From the NCBI GenBank assembly GCA_947179485.1, contig OX359250.1, positions 36,734,783-36,798,782 of the forward strand: a DNA stretch of 64,000 nucleotides, in the 5' to 3' direction. The DNA is from Allacma fusca (taxonomy: Eukaryota > Arthropoda > Collembola > Symphypleona > Sminthuridae). The translations under genes and the position numbers were made by a program. How positions within the stretch are numbered: position 1 is the first letter of the stretch; each line of letters opens with the position of its first letter. Of this stretch, positions 1,351 through 64,000 are shown piece by piece. Below the pieces are notes generated by a model. That model was not told where the DNA came from, ran no database searches, and saw nothing but the letters and a program-made list of their open reading frames with translations.

Positions 1351-3186
1351 GTAAAACAACTCCCGCTAAAATAAAACCTGCATAAACACCCACAACTGAA
1401 GGTAGCAAAAAAAGCGGGAGAATTCCCCCTGAACAGCGTCCCAGTCGCACAACATACAATGAGCCTTCAATAAAGTATTTCCAAACCAAGTCTTCACAAT
1501 TCTCCCAAAGCCGTGCCCCTGTCTCGTATTAACGGTAACATCCAATTGACTGGAAAAATCTTTTTCAGTCCCTCATGCATTGCAAGTCGTTGGAGGCCAT
1601 CTCCCTTTGATATCCTTTTTAAAAGTTTTAAAAGTTTTGATACACCACCTCCTTTGGGATTTCCTCCTATTTATTACATTGAAAGGGAAATGAGCTAGGA
1701 CCATTTCATTTCCAAGGGTTTCCGACACCACAGCCTGAATTATTGATGCTCGAGTTATTTTCTGCGACATTTGCCCTCTCTCATCACTGAAACCAATTTA
1801 TACTTTGGAAGCTCCTCTCACAAGAATTCTTCTGACTGGAGCTCCTTCAGTGACTTCGTCCTTTTCCCTTATCCCCCTCCCCTCCCAGAAATATCGGTGA
1901 GAGTTCCAAGCTGGAGGTCCATATGTACGTAACTATGAATCTAATCTAATTTTACTTGTATGATGTTACACTAGAATTGTTTTTTTTTTACAAAACGAAT
2001 ATTTGAACTACGTGTACAGCAAGACTTGTCTCTGGCTGGAGTATTCTTACTGGGGAGGAATTCTATAGGAGACTACCAAGGGAGGAAGTTACATGATGTC
2101 ATAATTGCTTAAGTCTAATGGTAATCCCCTTAGTACATAGTATGATCTTTAATGCTCAGCTATAATAATAATAATAATTACTGTAGCTAGATTATTAGAG
2201 GTTCCAGGAAGTGGGACCGGGGTCCAAGTGGTATGTTGATACGTGTAATTATGAAGACAGGAGTAGTCTCCTGAGTGATGGGAAGTGAGAATTAAGTTAT
2301 TGTAAAATATGAGTACTTTTTTTTATATGTAGATAACTAAATATTTTAGTAATTATGTGATAGTTTTAGCTTAGGAATACAAAAGACTCAAAGCATGAAA
2401 AAATTCAATGTTTATTTGAGACTCTCTCTCTCTCTCAAAATTTACGAATGGATGTGTCTCTCCCTGGAGTGCTAATTAGTGGCTTGTGTACAACTGTAAT
2501 TCTATGTTCCTAGAAGACTGGATCCCTCTTCCATGTCATGTGTTTTGTGTTGTATGTATTGTCATTCATATTATTTACATTGTATTTACTTATTTATTAC
2601 AATAATATATTAATACTAGATTTATTTTTCACCATATGCGTAGATTGAGAGTAGTGTCTCACTCTCCTGGGATATGCTTTCAGTTATATGTATGTTATCA
2701 TCATGGTATTTTTTGGTAACTACATTAAAAAAAGGGAACTACACTATAAAAAAAGGAACTACATCAAAAAAGGTCACTATACCAAAAGGGTAACCTTCAT
2801 TTTCAATAGTATCAACTTTGGAAATCAAACTTGTCAAGTGATATTAAAATTGACTACACACAAGGGAGGGGATGGGGAGAGGGGAAGAGGAAGATAATTT
2901 TTACTTCCTTACTTTCAAGTGTAAATAAATATCTGATTTGTGTATCTCTCCTTCACTAGGGGTAATATTTAATAATTATTATTATTGTTTTATTTTCTCA
3001 GTTTAGAACAACAATACTACAAAACCATATGATGTACGTAGGATTCATTCCACGTTGATACGTTTTATTACAGAGTAGTTCGAGGCTGTATCATATTAAA
3101 TTTGTGGTAAGGGAACATTATGTCCTGTCCGAGTCAAAAAATTAATCAATTACTTTCAATTTGAAAAACAATTTTTTCCACTCTTG

Positions 3187-3362
3187 TAAATTTTTTCCCA
3201 TTCATGTGAATTTTTTTCCACTCATGTGAATTTTTTCCTCTCATGTGAATTTCTTTTCTCTCATGTGAATTTTTTTCCCTCACGTGATTTTGTCCCTCAT
3301 GTGGATTTTTTTCCCTCACGTGATTTTTTCCCTCATGTGAATTTTTTTCCCCTCAGTGAATT
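3187..3362. repeat. About 19-bp T-rich minisatellite
   Basis: Roughly nine copies of a unit like TTTTTTCCACTCATGTGAA. Some units change to CCCTCACGTGATTTT. Translation gives a false repetitive ORF (NFFPS...) that should not be called a gene. Confidence 0.9.
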
Positions 3363-3871
3363 TATTTTTGAATTCTTGTGTAATAATGTAAGTATATACG
3401 CTCAGTCGTCGTACATACTCCGTGGATTCCTACGAGATTCTTTATGCAATCTAAAAATTCAGTCTTTGACTTGTTTTTCAATATTATACGAAAGCTTTGA
3501 AAAAGAAATCATAATTTTGTCGTTAATATTAATAATATTGTATTGATTGCGTCATCATATTTTTTTTCTCTTGACAAATTTTTCTGACATCTTGGAAAAA
3601 TCAAATCATGGAACAAAGGCACACATGCCAGCGTTTTTAAAGAATCTACAGATTATTTATTTTTTCCCCTTTTTCTCTTTTCCTTATTTCTTGTTACATG
3701 TTATGTATAATGTATAATACTATGTAGTATGGGGATACTCCCCTTGAAATAATATTTTGGTAGTGTTTTAATTTTTTTTATCAAATTTCAAAGCTCCAGC
3801 TATCATACTTAAGTGTGTGAGGTGTTCATGGATTTGATTGGCCTGGTTTGATTTCCGTCTGCCGGGACACT

Positions 3872-3881
3872 CACACACAAA

Positions 3882-3937
<56 letters not shown>
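3872..3937. repeat. (AC)n microsatellite
   Basis: An almost pure AC run of about 66 bp. The reverse strand translates to repeated Val-Cys, an artefact. Confidence 0.95.
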
Positions 3938-3940
<3 letters not shown>

Positions 3941-4539
3941 GACTGTTTGTAAATTGTAGGATAAATCAAGAGAGGAGAGAAAAGCTGAGATGTGTAGACA
4001 CCTGTACCTATATGAGGGAGTATATATGTACATCTATAATGGGAGAGGTGTGTGAGAGGGGAGAGGATGTATGGAGAAAGCTTACGAGTAAATTCCTGCC
4101 ATGTAGGGGCAGTAATTAATTAATTAATTAATGAGTGTATGGGGTCACAAGTAAATATACAGTTTGCGTGTGAGTAGTGTTGGAGTTTTGCTTCCCTAAA
4201 ATTAGGCTACGGCTAGGAGTTATCCAATATGTCTCTACGGTAGCATCTTTATAGAAATAAAATGTCAAATCGATTTCTTTACCATCACATGAGAATTTTT
4301 TTCCCCCCCTGGAATTAGTAGGCAATCTCTTCCTCTCACTCTCAATTCTCCTTCCAAAAGTCCAGGGACTAAACCTTTTGCATCCCAAATGGTTCTCTAC
4401 ACGAAGGGCTGAGGGGGAGACCAGTGAGCTGTAAGAGCTCAGTGGGGGTCCCACGTCCGGGGCGAGGGAGTGTGTGTGGGTCATGAAAAAATAAGGTATT
4501 AGGGAACGAACGGAAGTGATGGAGGAAGTGGACGTATCA

Positions 4540-4794
4540 TCATACAGTTTCAATGGGTGAGTCTTTGTGATGCTTCGCCCTCTCAAAATGGTCCACAGCT
4601 ACTATGTGCGTGGCGGGGTCAGCCATTGCCGCACTCTCGATGTCCGCCAGGGTGACAAGATGTTGATGATGCTGGGACCGCGACGGCGGCACCAGTGGCA
4701 AGTAATATAGAAGGCAAGATACGGAAACTAGGAACAGGAAGAAGATGAAGATTGCGTCGAAGAGGAGAAGCGCGTTCAGAGCCATCAGTTGCAT
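4540..4794 (-). CDS. Possible small single-pass membrane protein, 84 aa
   Basis: The ATG at 4794 starts MQLMALNALLLFDAIFIFF. One strong hydrophobic helix spans residues about 5-33, followed by a polar, His-rich tail and a TGA at 4540. The frame is open further upstream but has no earlier ATG there. Another ATG-started frame overlaps it (4906-4619). Residues around ALLLFD align without gaps with the 42-residue ORF at 25430-25558: AL, FD, LFL and C fall in register. The caveat is that this strand is pyrimidine-rich, which by itself gives Leu/Phe/Ser-rich translations. No family is recognised, no nearby minus-strand AATAAA was found, and function is unknown. Confidence 0.3.
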   Translation of the reverse strand: MQLMALNALLLFDAIFIFFLFLVSVSCLLYYLPLVPPSRSQHHQHLVTLADIESAAMADPATHIVAVDHFERAKHHKDSPIETV

Positions 4795-5395
4795 TGCATG
4801 GACTGATGATGATGGCGACGGTGGTGATGATGATGATGAAGAGGAAAAGGCAAGGAAGCAAGGATCCAGAGACCAACGTTTGGACTCTCGATGCTTCCAG
4901 GAGCATTCAGTTCCTTCAGGACTTGACAACGACTCACCCGAAAAAGGCTGTCGTCTCTCACCGGCCTTCCTCACGTCAAACTACTCACACTGATCCCTTT
5001 TTCCCCACTCGCCAATTCTCTGTCAACATGGATTTCCCTCTTCTAATAATTCCTCCTACTTTCCCTCCTTTCTGTCTCTCTCTCTCCCTCTCGCAATTTA
5101 CTTCAATGCGACCTTGTCCCCAGTTGCGGTTAATAAACTCCGTTCCCCTCCGGTGGTTCTCTACCAGGGTTTCAAGTCCCTAGAATTATTTTCGATCTGC
5201 AGGACCAGTCACGCTCCCCGAGTTATTGTAGCTCTGTAAGGAGTTACTCGGGAGATCTTCTCGAGACTAGCTTGGCTTCCAGAGTTATTGGAGCTTCGTG
5301 GAGTTATTTGGATCTTCGGAGGCTGTTAGGGCTGCAGAACTATGTATACCTCGAGTCTTCACACCGAGTCAGGACTGTAGAATTAGTTGGGGTCT

Positions 5396-5655
5396 GTAGA
5401 ATTATTTTAGGATTGTGGAATTAGTTTGGGTCTCTGGAATTGATTCAGGATCTTCTGAATTATTTTAGGTCCGTAGAATTATTTTAGATCTTCTGAATTA
5501 TTTTAGATCCGTAGAATTATTTTAGATCTGAAGAATTATTTTAGATCCGAAGAATTATTTTAGATCCAAAGAATTATTTTAGATCCGAAGAATTATTTTA
5601 GATCCAAAGAATTATTTTAGATCCGGGGTGTTATTTTACGTTCCCAGAATTATTT
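5396..5655. repeat. About 19-bp minisatellite with unit ATTATTTTAGATCCGAAGA
   Basis: About a dozen head-to-tail copies. The best-conserved ones are at 5480-5620, and they decay toward both ends into related GGAGTTATT/TAGAATTA words reaching back to about 5220. Confidence 0.95.
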
Positions 5656-8530
5656 TAGGATCCCCATTGAAGAACTGTGGGAGAAGAGTTGGGTGAGAAC
5701 CCCGTTGTATCTCCAGGAGTCTGTGAGGTCCGCGGGAGGAGATCTCCTTATCAGAGAGACTTTGGGTGATTTGGGGTGATACACCAAGAAATATCCCTGG
5801 TCGTAATAGTTTCCAAGGTAATTATTCCTTATCTTGTTAGCTCACCGGGTCCGACCAGCCAAAGGGAATATGACTATTGTGGAATTAATTTTTGGGTAGT
5901 TTTAAACTTTTGTAGATGCTCCAGCTCCTCGGCAGTCCGGAGTTCCTGGTGTAGAAGAGTAGTTCCTCCCGGCAGTATTTTATGGAGATCTCACGGAAAA
6001 ATCTGCTGAATAAAAAAAGAGTCTAGGTAGAGAGTTCAGAGGACAGTGGTAATAAAAGGGTGAGTTGACATTTATTTCCTCATGGCAGGAAATATGAAGA
6101 TAGTTTGGAATTGTTGAGGGAACTGCATTCCTTAAAAATTCATATAGGGAACACATGGTGGGGCCCAAAGAGAAGTAGTCCTGAGATGCATTGAGACTTC
6201 TTTAAATGATTAATACGACCCCTCTAATTGGAAAGTTTCCCTCCCCCCCTCTCTCTCTCTCCAAAATTTCCTCTCTCATAGTTTCCGCCTTCCCCTCAAA
6301 AAAAAAAAAAAAAAATACGACGAGCTCAACAAATTTATGACTTGAAGGACTCTAGTCTATCTACGTGCAATTTATCTTCGATACTGCTACAATATCTGTA
6401 CTAAAATCGAGGAATTGCTCCTCTCCGGCCATAACGGTCAGGCCAGCTGTTCCTCAGGAAGTGATTGAGGATAAGTGTGTAAATTCAAAAGGGGAGGGCT
6501 GGTGAAAGGAAGATGATATCTCGGGAGGTACAATGTTTGAATTTTGCGAGAGTTCCAGAGTGGGCCCCAGACTTGAGGAAGAGGTAGAGTGAGTGAAATA
6601 GATACTTGGGCCCGAGATAGGTACTTTTGGAAAAGGAGGAGGAAAGTTTAAAATGAGCAACAAAATGTTTGCACGAACAAGTTTCAAGAATAGATTAATT
6701 TGCCAAGTGAACTTTTCCTTATGTAAATAAAATTTGTTCTCACTTGTTGTAGGTTAGTTGAACGTCGGAGTTGGTGGTCTTAATATACTGATGGCGTGGT
6801 AGGGCTGAGCGGGTGCCGGGTGCTCTTAATTGTAATTGAAGGAATGCTCAATTGTCCTGTGATGACGGAGTTTCCGAGTCCTCTTTGGAAGTCTGACTCT
6901 CTCTAGCAACTCTTCCTCCTCACATAAGTGCGGAAGAATGCATTTCAATCTGAACCAGCTCAAATGATTTCCTCAGGGTTACATGCACTTAAACGTCATT
7001 GGATTCCGGTGGAGTTCTCTGGTTCTTGAGCCTTGTTTGGTCGAGATTTTTGTACAGGGACAGACAGGGCACATCAAAGAGTAGGGCTACTTTTTAATGC
7101 GTGGGAAGAGCTCTGTCCTCTCTCCGTCCGGCTTACTCAAGCGGGCTTGAAAATGACTCCTCAAAAGACGTTAGTCGTAGCACTTAACTTGGATTTGACA
7201 TGGAGTTTATGGATTTGAGTTGAGAGAGTGCATTCCGTTCCAATAAGCAAGGGCTCTTAACGCAATTTCTCTGTATCTCTCTCTCTCTCTCTCTCACTCC
7301 GGAGAAGAGTCAGAAAGAGAGCAGTGACTCCGAAGTGACACACACACACATACACACACACAAGGTCTTGGGAAGACTTTCCCCGTGGACAAAGTTCAGA
7401 GGACGAGTCAGGCTTTCCCCTTGTTTATTCCCTCTCAATAAAAATACATGGAGGGAGGGAAGTTGGAAGGGCTTTCACCAGGAATGTGATCAACTTTCCC
7501 TGACTTGCATCCAGTCACTGAAGAGTTTGGGGAAGAGTTATAGACTCTGTGAGGTTTGGTTTGGGGAACATTGTATTGCAATGTTTGAAATGTTCCAGGA
7601 GATAGATATTAATAAAATGTAGGGGAGACTCAAGTTTCACTCAAAGTTTCTTTTTTTTCTTTTCCCCTATATCTTAAGCAGGGAGAAAAGGGAAGGTCTG
7701 ATGAGATGAGATGTGATTAGGATTCTAGAGAGCTCACTCGTTTAATTAGCTTTGGCACCGACCGACCCAAATCAGCAAGACCCAGCCAACTACAGAGTGT
7801 ACAGAGACGTTCGGAACGGAGGAGCGGATGCTCGACTATTGGAGTCCTCCCGTCGCTCAAGTCTCATACTGCCCGAGGAAACACATTGCTCCTGGGTTTT
7901 CTACAATATCCCAATATTTTCTCTTAACAGTATTGCTTCCCCCCCTAACAAGTCTGGTGAAAGTCGAAGCTCCAAGTTTTCCTTTTCAAATGGGGACTTC
8001 ACCACTATGCTGAATTACTCCACATAATATGACGCTTTCTCTGATGATACTCTTCACCTTCCCTCAATACAGATGTGACTCGGGATGAATGTACACTCTC
8101 CAACTCTCTCTCTCTCTCTCTCTCACGATCCGACGGACTGAGTCGATGAAGCCCCTAAATTTAGAAAGGAAACATCATTAGTTTTATAACCCTCACAAGT
8201 AACCAACAAGTCAATTTGAGAGGCTAGTAAGTTTTTCTTAATTAGGAGACTCTTCACTTCCTCCTCCGGACAACATGCTCCCTGCTTCATCTGGGATCCG
8301 TAACTACACTCTGAGTGGTCTCTGTCAGCGTGTAACTTGAAGGGCAGGAGTGAGTGAGTCAATTTCAGTACTTATTTTTACTTATTTTGGATTTCTTACG
8401 ACTCCTTCACAGCGAGCTAACTTGTCATCACATCGCTTGCCCTTCGAATGTATTTTTGTACTTACAGCTGTTGTTAAGTTCAACATCAAACCAGTGTCGC
8501 TAAAACCAGACTTATTTTTTTTTTTAATTC

Positions 8531-9035
8531 AGAATTAGAAAAATGTTAAATTCGGAATTTAAAGAATTTGTAGTTAAATTCGGAATTTAAAGAATTTGTA
8601 GTTAAATTCGGATTTTAAAAAATTTGTAGTTAAATTCAGATTTTATAAAATTTTGTAGTTAAATTCAGATTTTAAAAAATGTGTAGCTAAATTCAGATTT
8701 TAAAGAATTTGTAGTTAAATTCAGATTTTATAAAATTTTGTAGTTAAATTCAGATTTTAAAGAATTTGTAGCTAAATTCAGATTTTATTAAATTTTGTAG
8801 TTAAATTCAGATTTTATAAAATGTGTAGCTAAATTCAGATTTTAAAGAATTTGTAGTTAAATTCAGATTTTATAAAATTTTGTAGTTAAATTCAGATTTT
8901 ATAAAATTTTGTAGTTAAATTCAGATTTTATAAAATTTTGTAGTTGAATTTAGAATTAGAAAAATATTAAAATCGGATTTGTAGAATTTCGTTGCGCAAT
9001 TCAGAATTAGAATATTTTTAAAATTCAGAATTAAA
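8531..9035. repeat. 28-29-bp AT-rich minisatellite, about 16 copies
   Basis: The unit is approximately GTTAAATTCAGATTTTATAA followed by AATTTTGTA. Two subtypes alternate (AAAGAATTTGTAG and TAAAATTTTGTAG), and copies near both ends are more diverged. The alternation suggests duplication of multi-unit blocks. Confidence 0.95.
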
Positions 9036-10078: not shown

Positions 10079-12409
10079 CTGGAGTTGTTGTTGGACCCAG
10101 CTCAAGCCCAACAATTAACAATTTGCTTCTGAGAATTCTGAATTACATTATATTAGGGTATTTAATCACTGCAGTCCCCCCACGTTACTTAGCAGACACC
10201 TAAACTGGGAAATGGTTGCATTAAATTAAGCCCTTCTCAGGTGGTTAGGATTCCTTGTATTACATTACGTGTCGGTAACCCAAATTTTGTCTCAAGCACT
10301 TTCCCATGCTAATTTCCTTCCCCCACACTCTCCCACTCCAAGGAGTCTCCCCTGTTTCTCATTCCTGTTAAAATATTTCCAGGAACTCTCAGCTTGGCTT
10401 CTTAATGCCTCTCCAGATCCTTAAATTCGAGCGTCATCACATCTGTTTACATAAGTTATTCCTAAAACCCTCCAAGCTCCCCTCCACATCTTCCATTCAA
10501 TTTTACCTCTTAACAACTTTGCATTTGTGGTCTAAGTGTTGTTCTAAAATAATTGGATTTTAGTTGGTCGGAGTAAATTCCAAGAGGTTCCTTTCCCAGA
10601 AATTACAACCGCTTCGCAGATGTCTACATGAGGATCTTAGCAGCCAATGATGTGCTTTCTCCCAGAGAGACTAGACTCTGACTCTGACTTTCTCCAAGCA
10701 TCTCCCATCCCGTCGTCCCATTGACCGATGGGCTTGATCTTTGAACCAAGTAGATACACGTCCGAGGAAAGGAATTGACAATAGCCCAACCGTCCGTCTC
10801 GAGAGCAGTCACTTCAAATTTGCATCATCCAATTGAATCCTCAGATCAAGGAGGCTTCCGAGAATTTTTTAGACGTGAGAACATGACTCTAGATATATTG
10901 TTCATAGGAGCATGCCTATCCTGTCATAACAGACAGGCCGTACGTGTGCTTTGGGTAAACGTGACCTTTGACGGGAAGTGACTGGGTTGCTTCACGTGAG
11001 GGGAAAAATTGCTCCTTTCCTTTGGTCTCTGACAAAGTCTTGTTTTAATACGTGCCACACCATCCAAAGGAAGACTGATCAAACGGGAGTGAGCCGGAGC
11101 TAACTACAGGGATATCTGTCTGAAGCAGCACTCCTAGGAGGAGTGACTTTTCCCTCTTAATAATAAAACTCCCTTGCAAAGGAGCAAAATTGATACCCCG
11201 AGGGTAAATGGGGAAGTGTCCCTACGAAAAAAAAGATATTTTTTAAAGATGGGTTTTTCCAGAGAAAATGCTCTGAAGAGAAAGGGAGTCTTGTACATTG
11301 AGAGTACTCTGTAATTATTGACCTATTCGAAAATTTTATAAAAACATTGTTACTATAAAAGAGTAATCTCAAGGGATTTTTGGATTTCAAGGGAATATGG
11401 AAGGAAAATTCGGGGAAAGCTAAAATGTGGAAAGTAGAAAATAATAAGATGCTTTTCACATAATACTCAAAATAAAGTTTGACGTTCTTCCCTCTGAATT
11501 CTAAACCTTGCAGTTGAGTATATTTAAAGCATTGGACATGCATCCATAAAAACATGTCATTTTGAAGGAGCTACTGTATAAGTTAGAATGGGAGATTCTG
11601 TGGAAATCTATATTTTCTTTTCCAGCTCCAACGCAGTTATTTTTTAATGTCAAAATCGTGTTTACAAGAGGATTAGCAGATTCCTTCCCACGAGATGGGG
11701 AAGGATTTTTGGGAAATAATTATAAACTGAAGACTCCACTTGAAATGATGGGTTCTAAATCAAAGGAAAATACTGTCTGAGAAGAAATTTAATGATGGGA
11801 AGTCTACGAATAATAACTGAATTGGATGGAATGATTTGGGGGACTCAGGAATATTAGAACGACTTGAGGGAAGCTAATGATGGAAGTTTGATGTGCACAA
11901 GTTATGGGCTAATAGTAGCTTTGGAAAAATTTGGCCTGAGGTATACCTTGATAAGAAAAAGAGCTCAACGAAAGAGGATAATATTATGGTAAAAGCTTTT
12001 TGGCTTTTTCCAACCTCATAAATCAACATTATATGTATTCATTCCCTCAAAGACCTCACAACATTTCCCAATATCCGTCTGCTGTAGGTCTGAAAGCAGG
12101 ACGACAAATATGAGAAACAGGCATTTTCCCTTCCCAAAAGACCGTCCGAATCTGTACATGCATTCCAGGGACCATCGCTATAAATCCTGTAGACATTATT
12201 GTTAACGGGAAGCCAACTCCTCGTCCTTCATACATTAAGGAGAAAGTCGAGAAATTTTTATAGGAGGGGGCTGTACCTAATGGTCACTTTCACTCATTCA
12301 AAATCTTAAATTTCGTACTCAATCTCATACATTTAATCGGAAGTTTGGCCCATTTTCCTTTCTCAAGGAAAAACAGAAGATTACCTTAAGGTTCACGAAC
12401 AACCCTAAC

Positions 12410-12655
12410 TTTCTCCGGGTCACGTAGGAGGTAACCAGGTAACTCCTGTTTACTTTTTCTGGGTCATACTGGACGTCATTCCTGTTTACTTTCTCCGGGT
12501 TACATAGGAGGTTACCAGGTTACATCTGTTTACTTTCTCCGGGTCACGCAGAAATTACTCAGGTAAATCCTGTTTACTTTCTCCAGGTCACAAAGGAGGT
12601 AACTCTTGTTTACTTTCTCCGGGTCACACAGGATGTCTCCTGTCTACTTTCTCCA
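12410..12655. repeat. Minisatellite with unit containing TTTACTTTCTCCGGGTCAC
   Basis: Six to seven copies of a variable 35-60 bp unit: CTGTTTACTTTCTCCGGGTC, ACATAGGAGGTAAC, CAGGTAACTC. The CTTTCTCC core is also the most over-represented octamer seen in the window. Confidence 0.85.
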
Positions 12656-49971: not shown

Positions 49972-50046
<75 letters not shown>

Positions 50047-50445
50047 GAGAGAGGTGTAGTTGGAGGAGAGCGGAGCTACAACTTATGCTAATACGAGTTC
50101 TGTATCAAAGGCTATCCACTGACTTACATAATCGTGTCTTTCTCCAACGTCTTTGTTCCCCTCTATTGAGGACTTCTCTCCCATTCTTTGGGGCTCCATT
50201 CTTAAGGCCACTACCTCCTTCTCTTCCCCGAGCTCTTCATCCATTTTCTTGCTACTTGGTGGTTGTTGTCCTACGCCAGTACTTACTGTCGTTGTCATTG
50301 TTCCCGCGGCATCAGCTTTGATGCCTGACAGGTACGAAGGAGAACTTGTTCTCTGTCTGACACTCTCATCAATCTCCACGGAATCCACTTGGGAAGGCTT
50401 GAACAAATATTCTCCTCCTCTTCCCTTCACAATTTTTCTGTCTTC
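48669..50445 (-). CDS. Possible three-exon gene, Ser/Pro/Gln-rich protein of unknown family
   Basis: On the minus strand three open stretches join at plausible splice sites, all in phase 0: 50445-50128 (donor TAT|GTAAGT), 49941-49684 (acceptor TCGCAG, donor AAAG|GTAAGC) and 48857-48669 (acceptor after a pyrimidine run ending CTACTGAG, stop TAA). The joined product is 254 residues, rich in Ser, Pro and Gln, with an acidic-hydrophobic patch LTSLYFEDDFCPVGDHDD in the second exon and SSPLAGTVQPP in the third. It looks like a disordered region, perhaps the activation part of a regulator, but no conserved domain is recognised. The 5' end is unknown: no ATG in frame begins the first exon, so further exons would be needed upstream. 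The 80-bp GA tract at 49974-50053 would be the pyrimidine tract of the first intron. An internal GTAAGT near 50279 is a competing donor. A minus-strand AATAAA lies near 48400. Confidence 0.35.
49259..49308. repeat. 16-bp tandem repeat, 3 copies
   Basis: TTTCATAATCTTGCTT is repeated three times (with ACT in the middle copy) and ends in CTTTCTCC. Confidence 0.9.
49974..50053. repeat. (GA)n microsatellite, 80 bp
   Basis: This is the longest dinucleotide run in the window, almost pure GA with one GAGGGA interruption near 50035. On the minus strand it is a (CT)n tract placed just upstream of a splice acceptor-like CAG at 49942, so it may act as an oversized polypyrimidine tract if the minus-strand gene here is real. 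Confidence 0.97.
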
Positions 50446-55875: not shown

Positions 55876-56238
55876 TTAGTTTTCCCCGTCACCCATTACA
55901 TGCTGGAAGAGGTCTTTAATAGCGGAGTAGACTTCGCTCCATGGAATCACAGCGATGATCATAAAGAAGGAGTTGAGGAGGACAAAAAACTGCATGTTCT
56001 CAAGTGCTTCTGGGGTTTGAAATTGATCAAACCAGGACTGGCTTTGTTGTTGCTCATGATTACTTTGATTCGCTTGATTTAGAGAATCAGAAAGTCGATC
56101 ACTTCCTCTGACATCCGCAGTGTATTTGTTCCTCCCTCCTCTGGAGCCCTTCCGAGCCGAGCCTGATGAAGACGATGGTAGTGACGGAGACAGATTTTTA
56201 GCACGACTGGAGCCACTACTATTTGCTTGGCGAACCAT
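55876..56238 (-). CDS. Possible tail-anchored-type membrane protein, 120 aa
   Basis: The ATG at 56238 has a good context (AGCATGG). Residues 1-70 are polar and rich in Ser, Arg, Asn and Gln. A hydrophobic segment follows at about 83-100 (MQFFVLLNSFFMIIAVIPW), then a short amphipathic tail WSEVYSAIKDLFQHV ending DGEN. On the minus strand an AATAAA (55852-55857) lies about 20 bases after the stop, unusually close but consistent with a compact gene. It is followed 156 bases downstream by another small membrane ORF in the same orientation, and the two share a YSA-x(0-1)-[IV]-x2-L-[FI]-[QN]-H motif just after the helix. No family is recognised. Confidence 0.38.
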   Translation of the reverse strand: MVRQANSSGSSRAKNLSPSLPSSSSGSARKGSRGGRNKYTADVRGSDRLSDSLNQANQSNHEQQQSQSWFDQFQTPEALENMQFFVLLNSFFMIIAVIPWSEVYSAIKDLFQHVMGDGEN

Positions 56239-59234
56239 GCTCTCGTCTTTTTCCTCTTCCTTTTCTTTTATTAACCACAACAGAGTTTGTATGGAGCTAT
56301 TTTAAACCCATCCGTATCCATGTGTCCTGAGTCCCTAGCCCCCCCACGATATCTATTTCACATCAATGCAAAAAAGAACTTCACCGGAGGATTTGCGGCT
56401 GAAGATGTAACATGGATTTGGGAGGATTTCAATTCATTACTCCACCTAAATATTCTTTTGAATTCTCCTCAAAAATTATTCCCTCCTTCCCCACGACTTC
56501 CAATGATGAGACTGTACAGAGGGAGACATGTGTCGAAAAATTCATTGCTCTCGCGTCTCGATCACATCAGACTCAAATTTCCTCCCTCCCCTTGAGGGTG
56601 AAGGTTCGGACCCAGTCATGGAAAGAGGTAAAAAATTTTTTTTTTCACGGAGTATGTGATCACACGTCAGAAACTTTCCCACTTTATTTTTATTCCTTTT
56701 GAAAAACTACTCCCGTTGAAATCAATAGCGTGGAAATTTTAACTGTTGAAATGATACGAGCCAAACTTTTGAAATCCTTGAGGAAATTCCAGTTGGTGAA
56801 GTAGTGATTTATTTTAACAAGATACCAAAAAGGTATGCAGTTTGGACCGGCCATGAGGAAAACTGTCATTGCGCAAGGAGATGGTCTTTCCCCTATTCCC
56901 GTCATAAGACGTATGTACAGACTTGGACCCACACGGATAATTATTGGGGAATGGGCTTAATTGAAATCAATCAAGGAAATTATTAGTGTGATGTTTGAAG
57001 ACACTTTTATGACCAGGGCTTGGCTTTTGGGTGAGGGGCTCATTCATTGGGAGAATCCTTGTGGATGCAGTGACAGTACTCGACTCCCTCGGAGTATCCG
57101 TAGGAATTTAATTTACTTGACTCCATATAAGGTAACTATAGCTCCGTCCTGGGGAGGAACTTGAGAAGGGACGTATTGTATTTGGAGAGCTTCCTGTATT
57201 ATTTTATTCCCTAATTGTGGGTAAATACACGTGGGAGTCGGGTAAATTCTTTCTCCACATTAGAATAGAGGGGATCAGCCAGGTGGAACAGGCTAAAAAC
57301 TCTCATTTCTATGGATTCAGGGGAAATTTGCGAGTGACGGGATGTGTATTTACGATTTATATTTCCTTCAGTCCAAAAGGCTCTGACAAAGGCTGATTTG
57401 GGGTATGGGAGCACTTCTCAGTCTTCTTTCATGCGGCGTTCCCGAGCTTAAAATTAAATCTTTATAGTTGGCTCATAATCAAATATAGGAAGAGAGACCT
57501 GCCGCCGTCCCAGTTCATTTGGAGTTGTGTGCGTATAATTATAGAAATAAGGAGGGGGTCCCGTGAGAATAACTCATAATATATTGCAGCCCATTTCCAG
57601 GTAATCTTCTTATGGACAAAGGACTCTCAAGGTGGAGGCAGAATGATTCATGTTCCAATTTAAATACTGTTACGACACTTGGACTCTCCGGGTCTTCAGA
57701 GGTCATTCTTTCCCTCCGCTCAAGAACATAAGGGCATGGGGCTCTGATCCTCTGAGCTCAACTTAAACTCAACAGCCAGTCAGGGGGGTCAGTCATATTT
57801 ACATTCACATTTTCCTTGATGAGAATCCTCGAGAGAAAATCCATCGGAAACATCCTTTAAATTAACAACTTTCCTTCACATTTCATTCTCTGGTCGTTTC
57901 CAATCTCCCAATTCCAATGCTCCAACTGTTCTTCCCGGAAGATCTTATTATGGCCCACTTCTTTTGACTCTCCTCCCAACTTGTGTATTCTAGTCATTTA
58001 GTTTTAGGCATATGAGCAAATAGTGCAATTTATACAAAAAAGTGGTCATTCAGCTCGATTAGGTTTGGAATGAAGGAAAGTTAGCCGCAAGAATATCCTA
58101 ATTTTCTCTTCGGAAATTAATTTCTGGTGCAAGGGGACTCAAGAGTTTCAATAATGAGTCAAGAGTCAATTTAAACTTCATCTCCTGTGAAAGAGTTCAT
58201 TTTTCAAAAAAAAATCGTATGCTTATATATAATGAAGATTTTCAGCACATAATTACTACAAAATCAAACCCCTGTCATTTCCCCATAGCCAATTTCGTAA
58301 CCAAAGATTTGAGCATTTCAAGATCACACAATTTTATTGCTAGTTTATTATAATTAATTTTTGAAATAACCAATTTAAATAGGAACTCACGAGGGAAAAA
58401 TTCTTCCTAGAATTTTCTATGAAAATTTAAATAATTACTGCATTTTAGAAGTATGTCTTGCTTATTTCTGATTTCTTTCCAATTGCTTTAAATTATGAAA
58501 TTCTGGTGGGAAAATTGTCAGTTTGATTTAGCTTCTGATGTAAGGTTATTTTTTTATTTTCAGTAAATATATTTTTGTAACCAAATTTCTAAATAATTTT
58601 AAAAGGGAATACCAACATTCTTCCAGTCAATTTTCTTCAAAAGGAAATCTTGTGTGTATGTGCATACAAGACTATAATATGCAATTATTACTACTTATAT
58701 GAACCTACTTTGAACCTCCTTATGGGCAACATCATAATTTATCGTCTAATATTAAATTTTTAATGTCTATGGCTCCATGAAATTGAGATGGTCCATTACA
58801 GGCCTTAATGGCCCATATTTTAAAAGGTAGGACTTAAAAACGAAAAATAAACCGCTTAGTAAGTAGCGGGAGGCGAGTAACAGGTCCAAGAAGAGCTACG
58901 ATCTTCAAGATGAGGCACATGCATCTACACATACGTAAGATGGGAGGTCGATAAGAGCTCCAAATATTGGAAAATATTACTAAAGAATATGAAATGAACG
59001 GCAAGTACATAACAAGGGATGTATTTATGGGGGTAACAGTCAAACCCAATGTTTTTAAATTAGTTTCCATGACATTTTCTGAAGTAATCGCCCACGTTTG
59101 AGTGGAGGGTTCTCGGGAAACAGGTTTTCATTGATTGGGTGAAATTTATGAATTTTAAAGGAAGAAATATCTCTCAGGTTATGAAGATCACGATTGTGAT
59201 GCGCTTGTAAAGTTCATGTAACCGTTTCAGAGTC
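56239..59234. other. Region between the small ORFs and MKS1
   Basis: AT-rich from about 58000 on. Open plus-strand frames at 56750-56986 and 56961-57131 look partly protein-like, and the second ends at a good donor (CATATAAG|GTAACT). Missing MKS1 N-terminal exons would be expected here or further upstream, but none could be matched. Confidence 0.45.
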
Positions 59235-59660: not shown

Positions 59661-59674
59661 GTAACCATGGTTGC
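59661..59674 (+). promoter_or_regulatory. X-box-like RFX site upstream of MKS1
   Basis: GTAACCATGGTTGC is a near-palindrome. The left half fits the X-box half-site GTNRCC exactly. The right half, read on the other strand, is GCAACC, one mismatch from it, with a 2-base spacer. It lies 175 bases before the ATG at 59849, a normal distance for RFX-controlled ciliary genes. Function is inferred. Confidence 0.5.
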
Positions 59675-59848: not shown

Positions 59849-61404
59849 ATGGAAAGCCCAATTATTCCAGATGTAACCACAGATTCTGACTCCGATAGCT
59901 CTGGAACAACCAATGGACTCACAGGTAACTTAAAGTTTTAATTGTGCACGGTTTGGCACGCTCAAATATTTCTATTTGAAAAAGAACATCAGCTGTGTCG
60001 CAATATTTGGCACAGAAGTAGAAAGCACACTGATGACAGTACAAATAAAATATAAATTATACATTATTACAAATTATATTTGTACAATTAGGTGGGCAGC
60101 CCGAAGATGACTACAATGACAGCTTGGAGGAGGATGCGGCAACAAAAGTTCGGAAGAGACGGTTTCTAGACGATCAAATGGATGATGTCTTCGAGGTAGA
60201 GTTCTCAGATTTTTTTAAAGTATTGTTGGGACCATCTAAATATTTTTAATCTTTAATTTGGTATTGCTTTCTTGTGAGTGTCGTTAATTAAGAAGGGTAA
60301 TTAATTTTTACTTAATTCTTATATTTTAATTTGATTCCTTTTGATTTCTAGCCTGTGCTACTAAATGAACTGAAGTTGGTCTTGCTGGGTGAAATAGTGT
60401 CCGCGGAAGGTTTTGACGCATCTCCTGTGTGTGTTCATTATTTATTCGAACTACCCAAAGGTATTCATCACGATTCCCCAAATTCAGTCTTTGAATTCTT
60501 TTTATATTGGATTTTATGAAGGTTAACGATAAATAAGGTCAATTTGGATTTATTGACAGGTTGGAGGAATGACAGCGTTGTAAGCAACTTGCAAGGCATA
60601 ACAAATAGTTGTTACTCTACGATCGAAGGAATGTGTCACTTCTCCTTCAGCTTCTTCATCCAGCTCATTTTTTCCCTGGATACTGTGGAAGAGAATAAAT
60701 CCAGTAATTTAGAGAGTATTTTGAATGTGGAAATATTGAAGTAATTATATGTAGTGTTAAAAGAATATTCAAATACATTTCAATTATTTTATTCAGTATC
60801 CCGCCCGGTAATCCTGATTTCAGTGGCTTCCATGCTGGATTCTACTCGAGTGAAATTTGATGGCTATGGTTATATTTCCTTACCATCCCATCCCGGAACT
60901 TACAATTTCAAAATTCAGACTTGGAGACCGAAACCGAGAACAATCGAGGAAAGGATGGCGGAGTGTTTTGTGGATGTTGCTCCATCATTACAGGATATTC
61001 GTGCTGCCCACCTACCATACTTTGAAGGCGAGGTAACATAAAATGAACATGAATTTCTGTGGGAGCAAATCTGTAATTTAAATTGCTTAGCTAATTTCAA
61101 TCTTCATCTGCAAAATATTTGATCGAGGTTCTTAAAATAATTGTAATTGAAACTCCAGGAGTGTCGAAGAGCAAATCGATTGGGATTACAAACAGAGCCC
61201 TCAGGCTTTGTTACCTTAAGATTCCATGTCTTCCATCAAGTACCTGCTGACATCCGAGCTCAGTCCAGCAAATTAATTCTCATGGAACGAATGAATTCTT
61301 CTACAATCGTCAAGAGTGTTCAAACTGTTATCGATGCATTTCAGCGAGCGAGGAAAAGAGCTGAGAATGCAAAGTTAGGCATGAGCACCAAATTAACCCT
61401 GTAA
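59849..61404 (+). CDS. MKS1: MKS1-like B9-domain ciliary transition-zone protein, six exons
   Basis: Exons read as 59849-59924, 60092-60195, 60352-60460, 60560-60703, 60797-61032 and 61159-61404. All introns are GT-AG and the phases agree, giving 304 residues. Residues 1-60 are acidic and disordered. A B9 (C2-like) domain follows from about residue 66, with LLGEIVSAEGFD near 71-82, GYGYISLP at 167-174 and TWRP at 186-189. After it come the MKS1-type LGLQTEPSGFVTLRFH strand and a C-terminal basic helix FQRARKRAENAKL (about 284-296), which separates MKS1 from the shorter paralogues B9D1 and B9D2. Known role of the family: part of the MKS/B9 complex at the ciliary transition zone that gates membrane proteins into the cilium. 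Vertebrate MKS1 is about 560 residues, so the N-terminal half is either lost here or lies in upstream exons I could not identify. The ATG at 59849 directly follows an acceptor-like CACAG, so it may be internal. The C-terminal identification is firm and the start is uncertain. Confidence 0.88.
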
Positions 61405-61480
61405 TTTACCAACAGTTATTGTTTGTTGGTAAACTACCGAAGGAAAAACTAAAATTTGTGAAGATTTTTCACATAACATC

Positions 61481-61486
61481 AATAAA
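61481..61486 (+). terminator. Polyadenylation signal of MKS1
   Basis: AATAAA lies 77 bases after the MKS1 stop codon, within an AT-rich 3' flank. Further AATAAA copies occur at about 61614 and 61790. The first is the likeliest, which would leave about 750 bases between the MKS1 transcript end and the BBS4 ATG. Confidence 0.6.
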
Positions 61487-62094
61487 AGTTTTAATTCATT
61501 TGTTATTCCTTCTCCGTCAATTATCAGGCAACGTTAAGCACATCAAGTAATTGTACACTTGGATTTGTGCCTGTACTGTTGACTCTGGATTTATTTTTAG
61601 TCGGTCATTTCGAAATAAACCTCCTTGGACATTAGGCCTTTGTGACACAAGCAATTCACTTCCAGAGCTTTGCGTGTTTGTAATTCTATGAATAATTTTT
61701 GTCAGTTTCTACCAGCTTTGATGGTTTCTCTGTGTTATGTCATATAACATATGGCACCCTGATTTCACAAGTATCTACATTCCAGTTTACAATAAAAAAA
61801 TTAATGTAAATAAACCAGTCGCTCGATTTCGTCTACACGCGAGGGAATCACTTGTACAGAAATAATAGGCTCGAGCAGGCATTTAAGGACGGATACCTCA
61901 TTGCGTGTGGATAATCATACAGTAAATTGTATCGCAATAATCGTAAACCTAATGGAACATGGAGATATGCCGGGGAATTAAGTACTCAATTTATATGTAT
62001 CTATACTGACTCTCCCAGATCCGTCCAGTATCAAGAGAGTTGTTGTACTCGAAGGCGATGGGGTGCTTGAGAAATTTCCGAGTCAAAACAAACC

Positions 62095-62108
62095 GTCACC
62101 ATGGAGTC
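62095..62108 (+). promoter_or_regulatory. X-box-like RFX half-site upstream of BBS4
   Basis: GTCACCATGGAGTC has one exact half-site (GTNRCC) and the AT spacer. The second half, read on the other strand, is GACTCC with two mismatches. It shares the pattern GTNACCATGG with the MKS1 site and lies 141 bases before the BBS4 ATG. The same bases form a strong start-codon context (CACCATGG) for a short upstream ORF, which is a competing explanation. Confidence 0.35.
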
Positions 62109-62184
62109 TGGACAAATTGATAGCCCGCTAAAAATTGATCAACTCATGAAAAGACACTTCATATATAGTAGTAGACAGATTTGA
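62101..62184 (+). CDS. Short upstream ORF before BBS4 (27 codons)
   Basis: The ATG sits in an ideal context (CACCATGG), and the frame reads MESGQIDSPLKIDQLMKR onward before a TGA at 62182-62184, 65 bases before the BBS4 ATG. If transcription begins upstream of 62095, this would be translated first and could damp BBS4 translation. Alternatively it is an alternative first exon, or just part of the X-box-like site. No homology is recognised. Confidence 0.25.
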   Translation: MESGQIDSPLKIDQLMKRHFIYSSRQI

Positions 62185-62248
62185 CATCAATACACCCGTC
62201 CTTGACAGTGTATTTGAGAGGTATTAATTTATTATTAAAAACATTACA

Positions 62249-64000
62249 ATGGACACGAAAAGGAACTCGGTGGAGAACTCCAACCGGGGTGAGGTCCAAC
62301 GATCCACTTCTCATAATGCAAACAGTAGTAACAGTACTCATGTCAATAACATTCCTCAGAGTAACTTGCGTTCTCTGCATAAAAAAGGTATTAAATCCTT
62401 ATCTTTACAATTAGGTATTTTGCTTCTCCTCCAATTGCTTTCTATTTAGCATCAACTTAAGTGCGACCTTTCCAGAAAACAGCACCACACTGTTTGCACC
62501 CCACTTGTACAGTTAAATAGTAGCCTCACATCACCTCTGTCTCCGTCTGGTGAAAGTTTTGTAGAAAGCGGAAATGACGACAGCATTACGTAAATTATTT
62601 GTACTGCTATTTTTCTTAACTACTCATTGCAAAAAAAAATTCTGGACATATTACATCCTACTGATAACCTTTTTTTGGATTTTTTTTTAGTGGAACTGAA
62701 ACATCCCTGTAGCAAGAACTGGCTCATCCATTTACACTATGTCCGACGTGAGTTTGAGACTTGCAAATCTGTGATTAACGAGGAGCTGGCCCGACTTAAT
62801 GGCAATTCCGAGTATGCAAATTATATCCTGGTAAGGACAAATAGAATTCTAAAAATAAGCTGAACATTTATTTTAGAAATAACTTGGGAAAAATTCCCCA
62901 GACACACATCCATACGTGTGGGCATTATAGTGAGGCCTTGCTCATCCCCGTACTTTCTCCTTCACAGGCACTTATCCTACGGAGCGAAGGAAGAATGCAG
63001 GAATCCCTTGATAGACTCCAAGTATGTCATGAGCTGGAGCCCACGAATGCCAACACAGTAAATCAGATCGCGAGATCATTGTAAGTCCTTGGAACTATTA
63101 TTATTTGGAAATTGGTATTTAATTTTCCAGCTGAATAATATCCAGATTCCTGCTCGGGAGACATAAACTGGCGGTGGATGCGTATCAAAAGGCCCAGTTC
63201 CTGAGTGATGAGTCCGACTCCGAGACTCATTACAATATGGGAATGTGCTACTTGTTCATGAAGGATCTGGATAAAGCGAAGGAGCACATGAGTCTGTCCC
63301 TCCAAGCAAGAGTGTCCTACGATGCTTTTGAGATGCTAGCTCAGATTTCCTTAGCCAAGAATAACATTCCAGAGGCGATCAGTGTTTACGAGAAAGCACT
63401 TAAGTAACTCCTATTTACAATCTTCCTTCTATTATGAAATCCTCCTCGAATATTTATTTGTATAAAGATGCTTTGACCGAGGGCTTCGCAGCGTCCGGGA
63501 TTTTTTTAATAGATGCTGCTAGCTACACACATAATTCGGCACAATTTAGTATGTTATTTAATATTTTGGGTAATCATTTATAATTCTTGACAAGCATTCA
63601 TTTCTCCTTAGGATCTTCCCTGAGAATCCAGCATTGTTAAGCAGTGCTGGTGTATTGTACATGAAAATCGGGAAGGACGGGCTGTCTTTCACTAAGCTCG
63701 GATCTGCCCTCGCTTTTGACGCCACAAGTCCAAAAGCTATTGTGGCAATTGCGTCCATGATGCAGGTAATAAGATTGACATTAAGTAATTACTGTTTGTA
63801 GGAAATATTTTCATTTAAAATTCCGGTGAAGATTTCAAAAACGCTCATAAAAAATGTATTCGTTTACACACTATATACCCTGCAATTTGCATCCACAGAC
63901 ATATGAAGACTACGATTTCGCCCTGGCGAAGTACAAAATAGCGATGCAGAAGATCCCGGATTCCTCCTCATTGTGGAATAACATTGGGATGTGTTTTTTT
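62249..64000 (+). CDS. BBS4: BBS4, BBSome TPR subunit (5' part, cut by window end)
   Basis: Exons are 62249-62387, 62691-62830, 62968-63080, 63146-63403, 63612-63765 and 63899 onward, all GT-AG with matching phase, giving 302 residues before the window ends inside an exon. A polar N-terminal tail of about 46 residues leads into KNWLIHLHYVRREFETCK, which is the signature entry to BBS4. Tetratricopeptide repeats follow, with landmarks ALILRSEGRMQESLD, ARSLFLLGRHKLAVDAY, HYNMGMCYLFMKDLDKA, IPEAISVYEKALKIFPENP, AIASMMQTYEDYDFALAKY and SLWNNIGMCFF. These follow vertebrate BBS4 (about 520 residues) closely and in order, so roughly the first 60% is present. Known role: the BBSome coat that moves membrane cargo along cilia; BBS4 also binds pericentriolar material. 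The ATG at 62249 is the first one that joins in phase to the TPR exons. The gene starts 845 bp after the MKS1 stop on the same strand. Confidence 0.93.

Follow-up and report, generated by a model that had tools for sequence, protein, structure and literature searches.

The genes for ciliary transition-zone proteins and for subunits of the BBSome are usually single-copy and scattered, and human MKS1 and BBS4 are located on different chromosomes. In the springtail Allacma fusca, a 64,000-bp stretch of contig C9 (OX359250.1; G000:C9:36734783-36798782), hereafter the window, encodes an MKS1 ortholog, belonging to the B9 family of the transition zone, directly followed by an ortholog of BBS4, a tetratricopeptide repeat (TPR) subunit of the BBSome. 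Comparison against the complete assembly (392,743,791 bases in 91 contigs) indicates that this pair is one of two copies produced by an old segmental duplication encompassing both genes. It resembles an ordinary proximal duplication with gene conversion in that two nearby open copies are under purifying selection and show patchy synonymous divergence, but differs in that the copied block holds two genes, each belonging to a different ciliary complex. Among the RFX targets of Drosophila, BBS4 and two B9 genes depend on dRFX, with CG13232/BBS4 dropping 17-fold without this factor, and cross-genome conservation of the site proved the useful criterion (PMC2375033). In A. fusca, by contrast, the conservation is that between duplicate copies, the sites are imperfect and RFX binding is putative. 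No description of the pair was noticed in listings of the literature on MKS1 and BBS4 with duplication, adjacency, arthropods or springtails.

Identity and structure of the MKS1 and BBS4 genes

The MKS1 ortholog is encoded on the forward strand at positions 59849..61404 of the window. The spliced model comprises six exons (59849-59924, 60092-60195, 60352-60460, 60560-60703, 60797-61032 and 61159-61404) separated by five GT-AG introns, and forms a single open frame of 304 amino acids with the B9-C2 domain at residues 70-247, a structure which is repeated in the second copy. The domain is complete, covering positions 2-165 of the 166 in the Pfam B9-C2 profile (106.9 bits). Among the three human B9 proteins, for which sequences written out without a database record served as queries, the nearest is MKS1 (E 2e-36), followed by B9D2 (5e-12) and B9D1 (1.5e-4), and residues 46-295 align with residues 290-543 of human MKS1, through the C-terminal tail. 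The genome's own B9D2 (locus L009) and B9D1 (locus L010), likewise assigned via these human sequences, are found on contig C10, apart from MKS1. The springtail protein differs from its human counterpart in that the N-terminal part appears to be missing and in occurring in two copies. When the N-terminus of the human query (~290 residues) was searched across 281 kb, a weak test, the best E-value was 0.42, and the regions upstream of both MKS1 copies share no coding similarity among open reading frames (ORFs) of at least 35 amino acids. Neither this search nor the upstream ORF comparison revealed an extra upstream coding exon. The missing N-terminus is read as a loss in the lineage that does not contradict orthology, given that the predicted protein has the B9 and tail regions of MKS1. 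A search of the PDB sequences with MKS1 gave no matches up to E 1.

The BBS4 ortholog is located on the same strand, with 62249..64000 representing the part within the window; position 64000 is the window edge, and the gene continues for a further 929 bp to its stop at 64929. Nine exons (62249-62387, 62691-62830, 62968-63080, 63146-63403, 63612-63765, 63899-64021 and three more up to 64929) encode 502 amino acids with TPR repeats. A ten-exon model with a separate exon at 62450-62589 was rejected, as its frame is broken, while omission of that exon leaves a clean 502-amino acid frame. Among solved structures, the closest matches are to the BBS4 chains 6xt9_D (E 3.7e-117) and 6vbu_4, and residues 54-463, most of the protein, align with the former. 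As with MKS1, the departure from the known family lies in the presence of two copies in the A. fusca genome. The alignments to the B9 and BBS4 families thus bear out the identities claimed in the original prediction, and indicate that the two genes are true orthologs of MKS1 (transition zone, B9 complex) and BBS4 (BBSome). The predicted head to tail order on one strand also stands, while the distance from the MKS1 stop to the BBS4 ATG measures 844 bp instead of the 845 bp given there.

A second copy of the MKS1-BBS4 pair

A second MKS1-BBS4 pair with both frames open (C9:36587815-36592792; L008 4116-9093) occurs on the same contig, in the same order and on the same strand, 206,816 bp upstream of the window pair as measured from ATG to ATG. 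Its MKS1 (C9:36587815-36589388) and BBS4 (C9:36590163-36592792) genes are 774 bp apart. All intron positions are common to both copies, and exon lengths are equal for MKS1 exons 2-6 and BBS4 exons 1-8, with amino acid identities of 262/303 for MKS1 and 441/502 for BBS4. Nei-Gojobori estimates of synonymous (dS) and non-synonymous (dN) divergence and of their ratio (omega, dN/dS) were 0.82, 0.076 and 0.093, respectively, for MKS1 and 0.49, 0.068 and 0.138 for BBS4; such pairwise ratios do not distinguish which copy is the more constrained. Both copies are old yet constrained, with open frames and dN/dS values well below 1. An assembly join between MKS1 and BBS4, the flaw against which the original prediction had cautioned, is very unlikely because the second, diverged pair keeps the same order.

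The synonymous divergence of BBS4 is patchy, with a proportion of synonymous differences (pS) that falls to 0.07 for codons 151-180 and to 0.05 for codons 331-360, compared to 0.14-0.63 in the other 30-codon bins. A Sawyer-type permutation test on the synonymous differences gave p-values of 0.0025 (sum of squares) and 0.053 (longest run) for BBS4, and of 0.054 and 0.094, respectively, for MKS1. Gene conversion is supported for BBS4 only, and the BBS4 dS therefore represents a lower bound on the age of the duplication.

Nucleotide comparison of C9:36573700-36613699 with C9:36774783-36824782 (E 1e-5) showed similarity confined to the pair, in three blocks of 73-82 % identity. Similarly, 1328 ORFs of at least 35 amino acids from ~91 kb around the other copy were compared with the 60 kb preceding and the 25 kb following the window copy, without a single match at E 1e-4; neutral flanks of such age would have lost similarity, and the flank comparison gives no original break points. 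A genome search for the B9-C2 domain yielded five matches, comprising MKS1 twice, one B9D1 and one B9D2 in two pieces, while all 18 of the 18 matches to the BBS4 protein fall within the two loci. The seven other ciliary genes searched (B9D1, B9D2, BBS5, BBS1, BBS9, BBS2 and CC2D2A) each have one locus, as counted from the best candidates, so that weak extra copies could be missed. The matches to BBS1, BBS2, BBS5 and BBS9 all lie away from the pair.

Upstream sites and candidate polyadenylation signals

An imperfect X-box-like palindrome, GTAACCATGGTTGC (59661..59674; strand not assigned), is located 188 bp upstream of the MKS1 ATG, and in the second copy a perfect palindrome, GTAACCATGGTTAC, occupies the aligned site. 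The site overlaps a 13-bp identical run in the alignment of the two upstream regions (290 ungapped columns, 48 % identical), in which TGTAACCATGGTT and TATTGATTAACC are the only identical runs of at least 10 bp, and none of 1000 column shuffles gave as good a joint match in both copies. The alignment upstream of BBS4 (756 columns, 53 % identical) holds four identical runs of at least 10 bp, three of which fall within a ~60-bp island (~62094-62154) starting CGTCACCATGGA. At the start of this island, 154 bp upstream of the BBS4 ATG, lies the X-box-like GTCACCATGGAGTC (62095..62108; strand not assigned), whose joint match was equalled by 10/1000 column shuffles. MKS1 and BBS4 may be regulated in parallel by RFX through these separate putative sites.

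A candidate MKS1 polyadenylation signal, AATAAA (61481..61486, forward strand), lies within AATAAAAGTT, which is also found after the MKS1 stop of the second copy. The hexamer follows the stop at 77 bp in the window copy and at 99 bp in the other; the MKS1-BBS4 gap is AT-rich and includes further AATAAA hexamers beyond the candidate signal. Since each gene has its own conserved upstream island and an AATAAA follows each MKS1 stop, two separate transcripts would fit better than a shared one, and the same features speak against co-regulation of the two genes by way of a shared transcript.

Origin, regulation and setting of the pair

We consider it probable that the locus represents an orthologous pair derived from a joint, old duplication, of which both copies are under purifying selection and the genes are separately transcribed via RFX-type sites. 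Gene identity, gene order, the duplication, the constraint and the conserved islands are demonstrated by the sequence comparisons, whereas RFX binding, separate transcripts and the X2 location are predicted. MKS1 and BBS4 would have become neighbours through ordinary gene shuffling before a proximal duplication copied the small MKS1-BBS4 block, and purifying selection would since have retained both copies, while BBS4 underwent some gene conversion. A short promoter of its own, probably containing an RFX-type X-box, most likely drives each gene, so that joint activation in ciliated sensory cells and spermatids would come from a common factor and not a common transcript. With an assumed 18,000 genes in random order, 0.6, 2.2, 5.0 and 8.9 adjacent ciliary pairs are expected for an assumed 100, 200, 300 and 400 ciliary genes, respectively. 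Because chance alone yields several such pairs where there are hundreds of ciliary genes, the adjacency on its own is unremarkable, and it is the joint duplication and the retention of both copies that is of note. The locus is better described as a well-preserved gene duplication than as a novel type of gene unit.

The contig carrying both pairs is probably chromosome X2 of A. fusca. The published assembly derives from a male specimen (PMC10427803), and in this group one copy each of X1 and X2 is eliminated from males at an early developmental stage (PMC9630974). The original prediction had tentatively linked the adjacency to a lineage with few ciliated cells, a cause which is unsupported; sperm cells make up an estimated 27.5-38.4 % of the A. 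fusca male body (PMC9630974). Both copies may have been kept either for reasons of dosage, on an X present only once in males, or because sperm flagellum and sensory cilium divide the work between them. The retained joint duplication, with one gene per ciliary complex on a probable male-single X, provides a natural test of dosage and of whether sperm and sensory cells share out the tasks of cilium building. From the duplicate promoters, ciliary regulatory sites could be read even though functional genetics is lacking in this group.

Several observations weigh against the regulatory and chromosomal parts of this interpretation. The sites were compared with the X-box consensus RTHNYYWTRRNRAC and the palindrome GTTRCCATGGYAAC. 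The MKS1 and BBS4 sites show one to two mismatches to RTHNYYWTRRNRAC, with 55-100 of 100 shuffles as good, and two to four mismatches to GTTRCCATGGYAAC, with as good a match in 7/100 (window) and 0/100 (other copy) shuffles for MKS1, and in 41/100 and 7/100, respectively, for BBS4. The column shuffles disrupt stretches of conserved columns, and the sites had been seen by eye before the tests were chosen. No full consensus X-box occurs in the four MKS1 and BBS4 upstream stretches, and the MKS1 site departs from the published consensus. The Drosophila X-box forms are given by Laurencon et al. 2007 (PMC2375033), who report that the mere presence of an X-box is not predictive of RFX control. Among six other ciliary genes, the stretches upstream of B9D1 (GTAGTCATAGCAAC, 440 bp upstream) and BBS2 include a perfect match to RTHNYYWTRRNRAC (6/100 shuffles as good in each), while those of B9D2, BBS1, BBS9 and BBS5 hold no X-box match above chance; the first fitting ATG was taken as the start of BBS1, BBS2 and BBS9, and the BBS5 stretch is arbitrary. 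Given this mixed result, an X-box code in the A. fusca genome is not established. Furthermore, a short frame starting MESGQID is found upstream of BBS4 in both copies (62101-62184 and L008 6316-6390) and is alike in the first 18 codons, where the copies differ mostly by silent or mild substitutions. It may represent a leader ORF, a lost exon or a promoter element, and a leader ORF would be another possible cause of the conservation of the BBS4 island. That each gene has a promoter of its own and that both copies are expressed are predictions from sequence. Finally, X2 measures 48.07 Mb in the published description (PMC10427803) versus 48.06 Mb here, with 95 versus 91 scaffolds.

Neighbouring genes and alternative explanations

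The next recognised gene downstream of the window BBS4 encodes an AKAP28 domain (Pfam AKAP28, E 1.2e-32; about 66131-68025, outside the window; L006 6131-8025; forward strand) and starts 1202 bp past the BBS4 stop; its model is hand-joined, with the middle exons incompletely modelled. Next to the other copy, ~2.8 kb past the BBS4 stop and on the same strand, a rotatin-like gene (L015 about 1877-7500, end uncertain) is the next recognised gene. It matches human rotatin, again a sequence written out without a database record, at E 5e-9, compared to a best value of 0.60 for one shuffled query, while its RTTN_N match of 21.5 bits, obtained in a Pfam scan of nine pieces (five of them rescanned), falls below the cut-off of 25. 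A ciliary or centriolar next neighbour at both copies, noticed post hoc and, like the duplication itself, absent from the original prediction, is suggestive. AKAP28 is described as a structural element of motile cilia (PMC12203939) and RTTN is centriolar (PMC5558016). Both loci could thus be viewed as a functional ciliary cluster held together by selection for common regulation, with MKS1-BBS4-AKAP28 in the window and MKS1-BBS4-rotatin at the other copy, each on one strand. Random ciliary triplets are expected only 0.02-0.2 times per genome (assuming 200-400 ciliary among 18,000 genes). We nevertheless regard such a cluster as unlikely: besides the post hoc recognition of the downstream neighbours, the upstream neighbours are without recognised identity, the flanks of the copies have no similarity at the thresholds used, so that the triplets are not one conserved unit, and BBS5, BBS9, BBS1, BBS2, CC2D2A, B9D1 and B9D2 are found elsewhere in the genome.

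Slightly less probable again is a ciliary module that was duplicated as a unit on the male-single X, of which the copies would have become specialised for the sperm flagellum (beside AKAP28) and for sensory cilia or centrioles (beside rotatin), respectively, with the neighbourhood helping to set expression. Co-transcription as a dicistronic or operon-like unit from one promoter appears improbable. The genes share a strand and are only 844 and 774 bp apart in the two copies, but apart from the AATAAA past each MKS1 stop and the conserved island that each copy has immediately 5' of BBS4, the gap differs by 70 bp between copies and its middle is diverged. An origin of the second copy as an assembly artefact or uncollapsed haplotype can virtually be dismissed. 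Curators removed 23 haplotypic duplications, so that some arose (PMC10427803), but an assembly join or haplotype duplicate was rejected in view of a dS of 0.5-0.8, far above allelic difference, the lack of detected flank similarity between the copies, the confinement of similarity to the pair and, if the contig is X2, the single X2 of males (PMC9630974). Ordinary joint duplication of the pair, followed by constraint on both copies, remains the preferred explanation.

Other features of the flanks and the window

Pfam scans of 20 flank ORFs, taken mainly from the longer of 198 in the flanks of the other copy and 223 in those of the window copy, gave no match above cut-off and one weak match to SurA_N_3 (17.2 versus 27.2 bits). 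An ORF at L014 2477-3058 resembles, by eye, a fragment of a hAT-type transposase, with no Pfam match at E 0.01. Upstream of MKS1, a coding-like frame on the reverse strand (55876-56301) encodes 120 amino acids when counted from the ATG, with a hydrophobic segment at the C-terminus, and matches no Pfam family above cut-off. Scans of the 64-kb window for tRNA and Rfam families gave no matches. The survey of the gene-poor character that the original prediction ascribed to the window comprised an ORF list, these scans and several Pfam scans. Tandem repeat arrays with units of 19-124 bp, along with an AG run, are located at positions 8545-8965, 5371-5663, 3170-3367, 1249-1371, 12408-12633 and 49974-50053 of the window.

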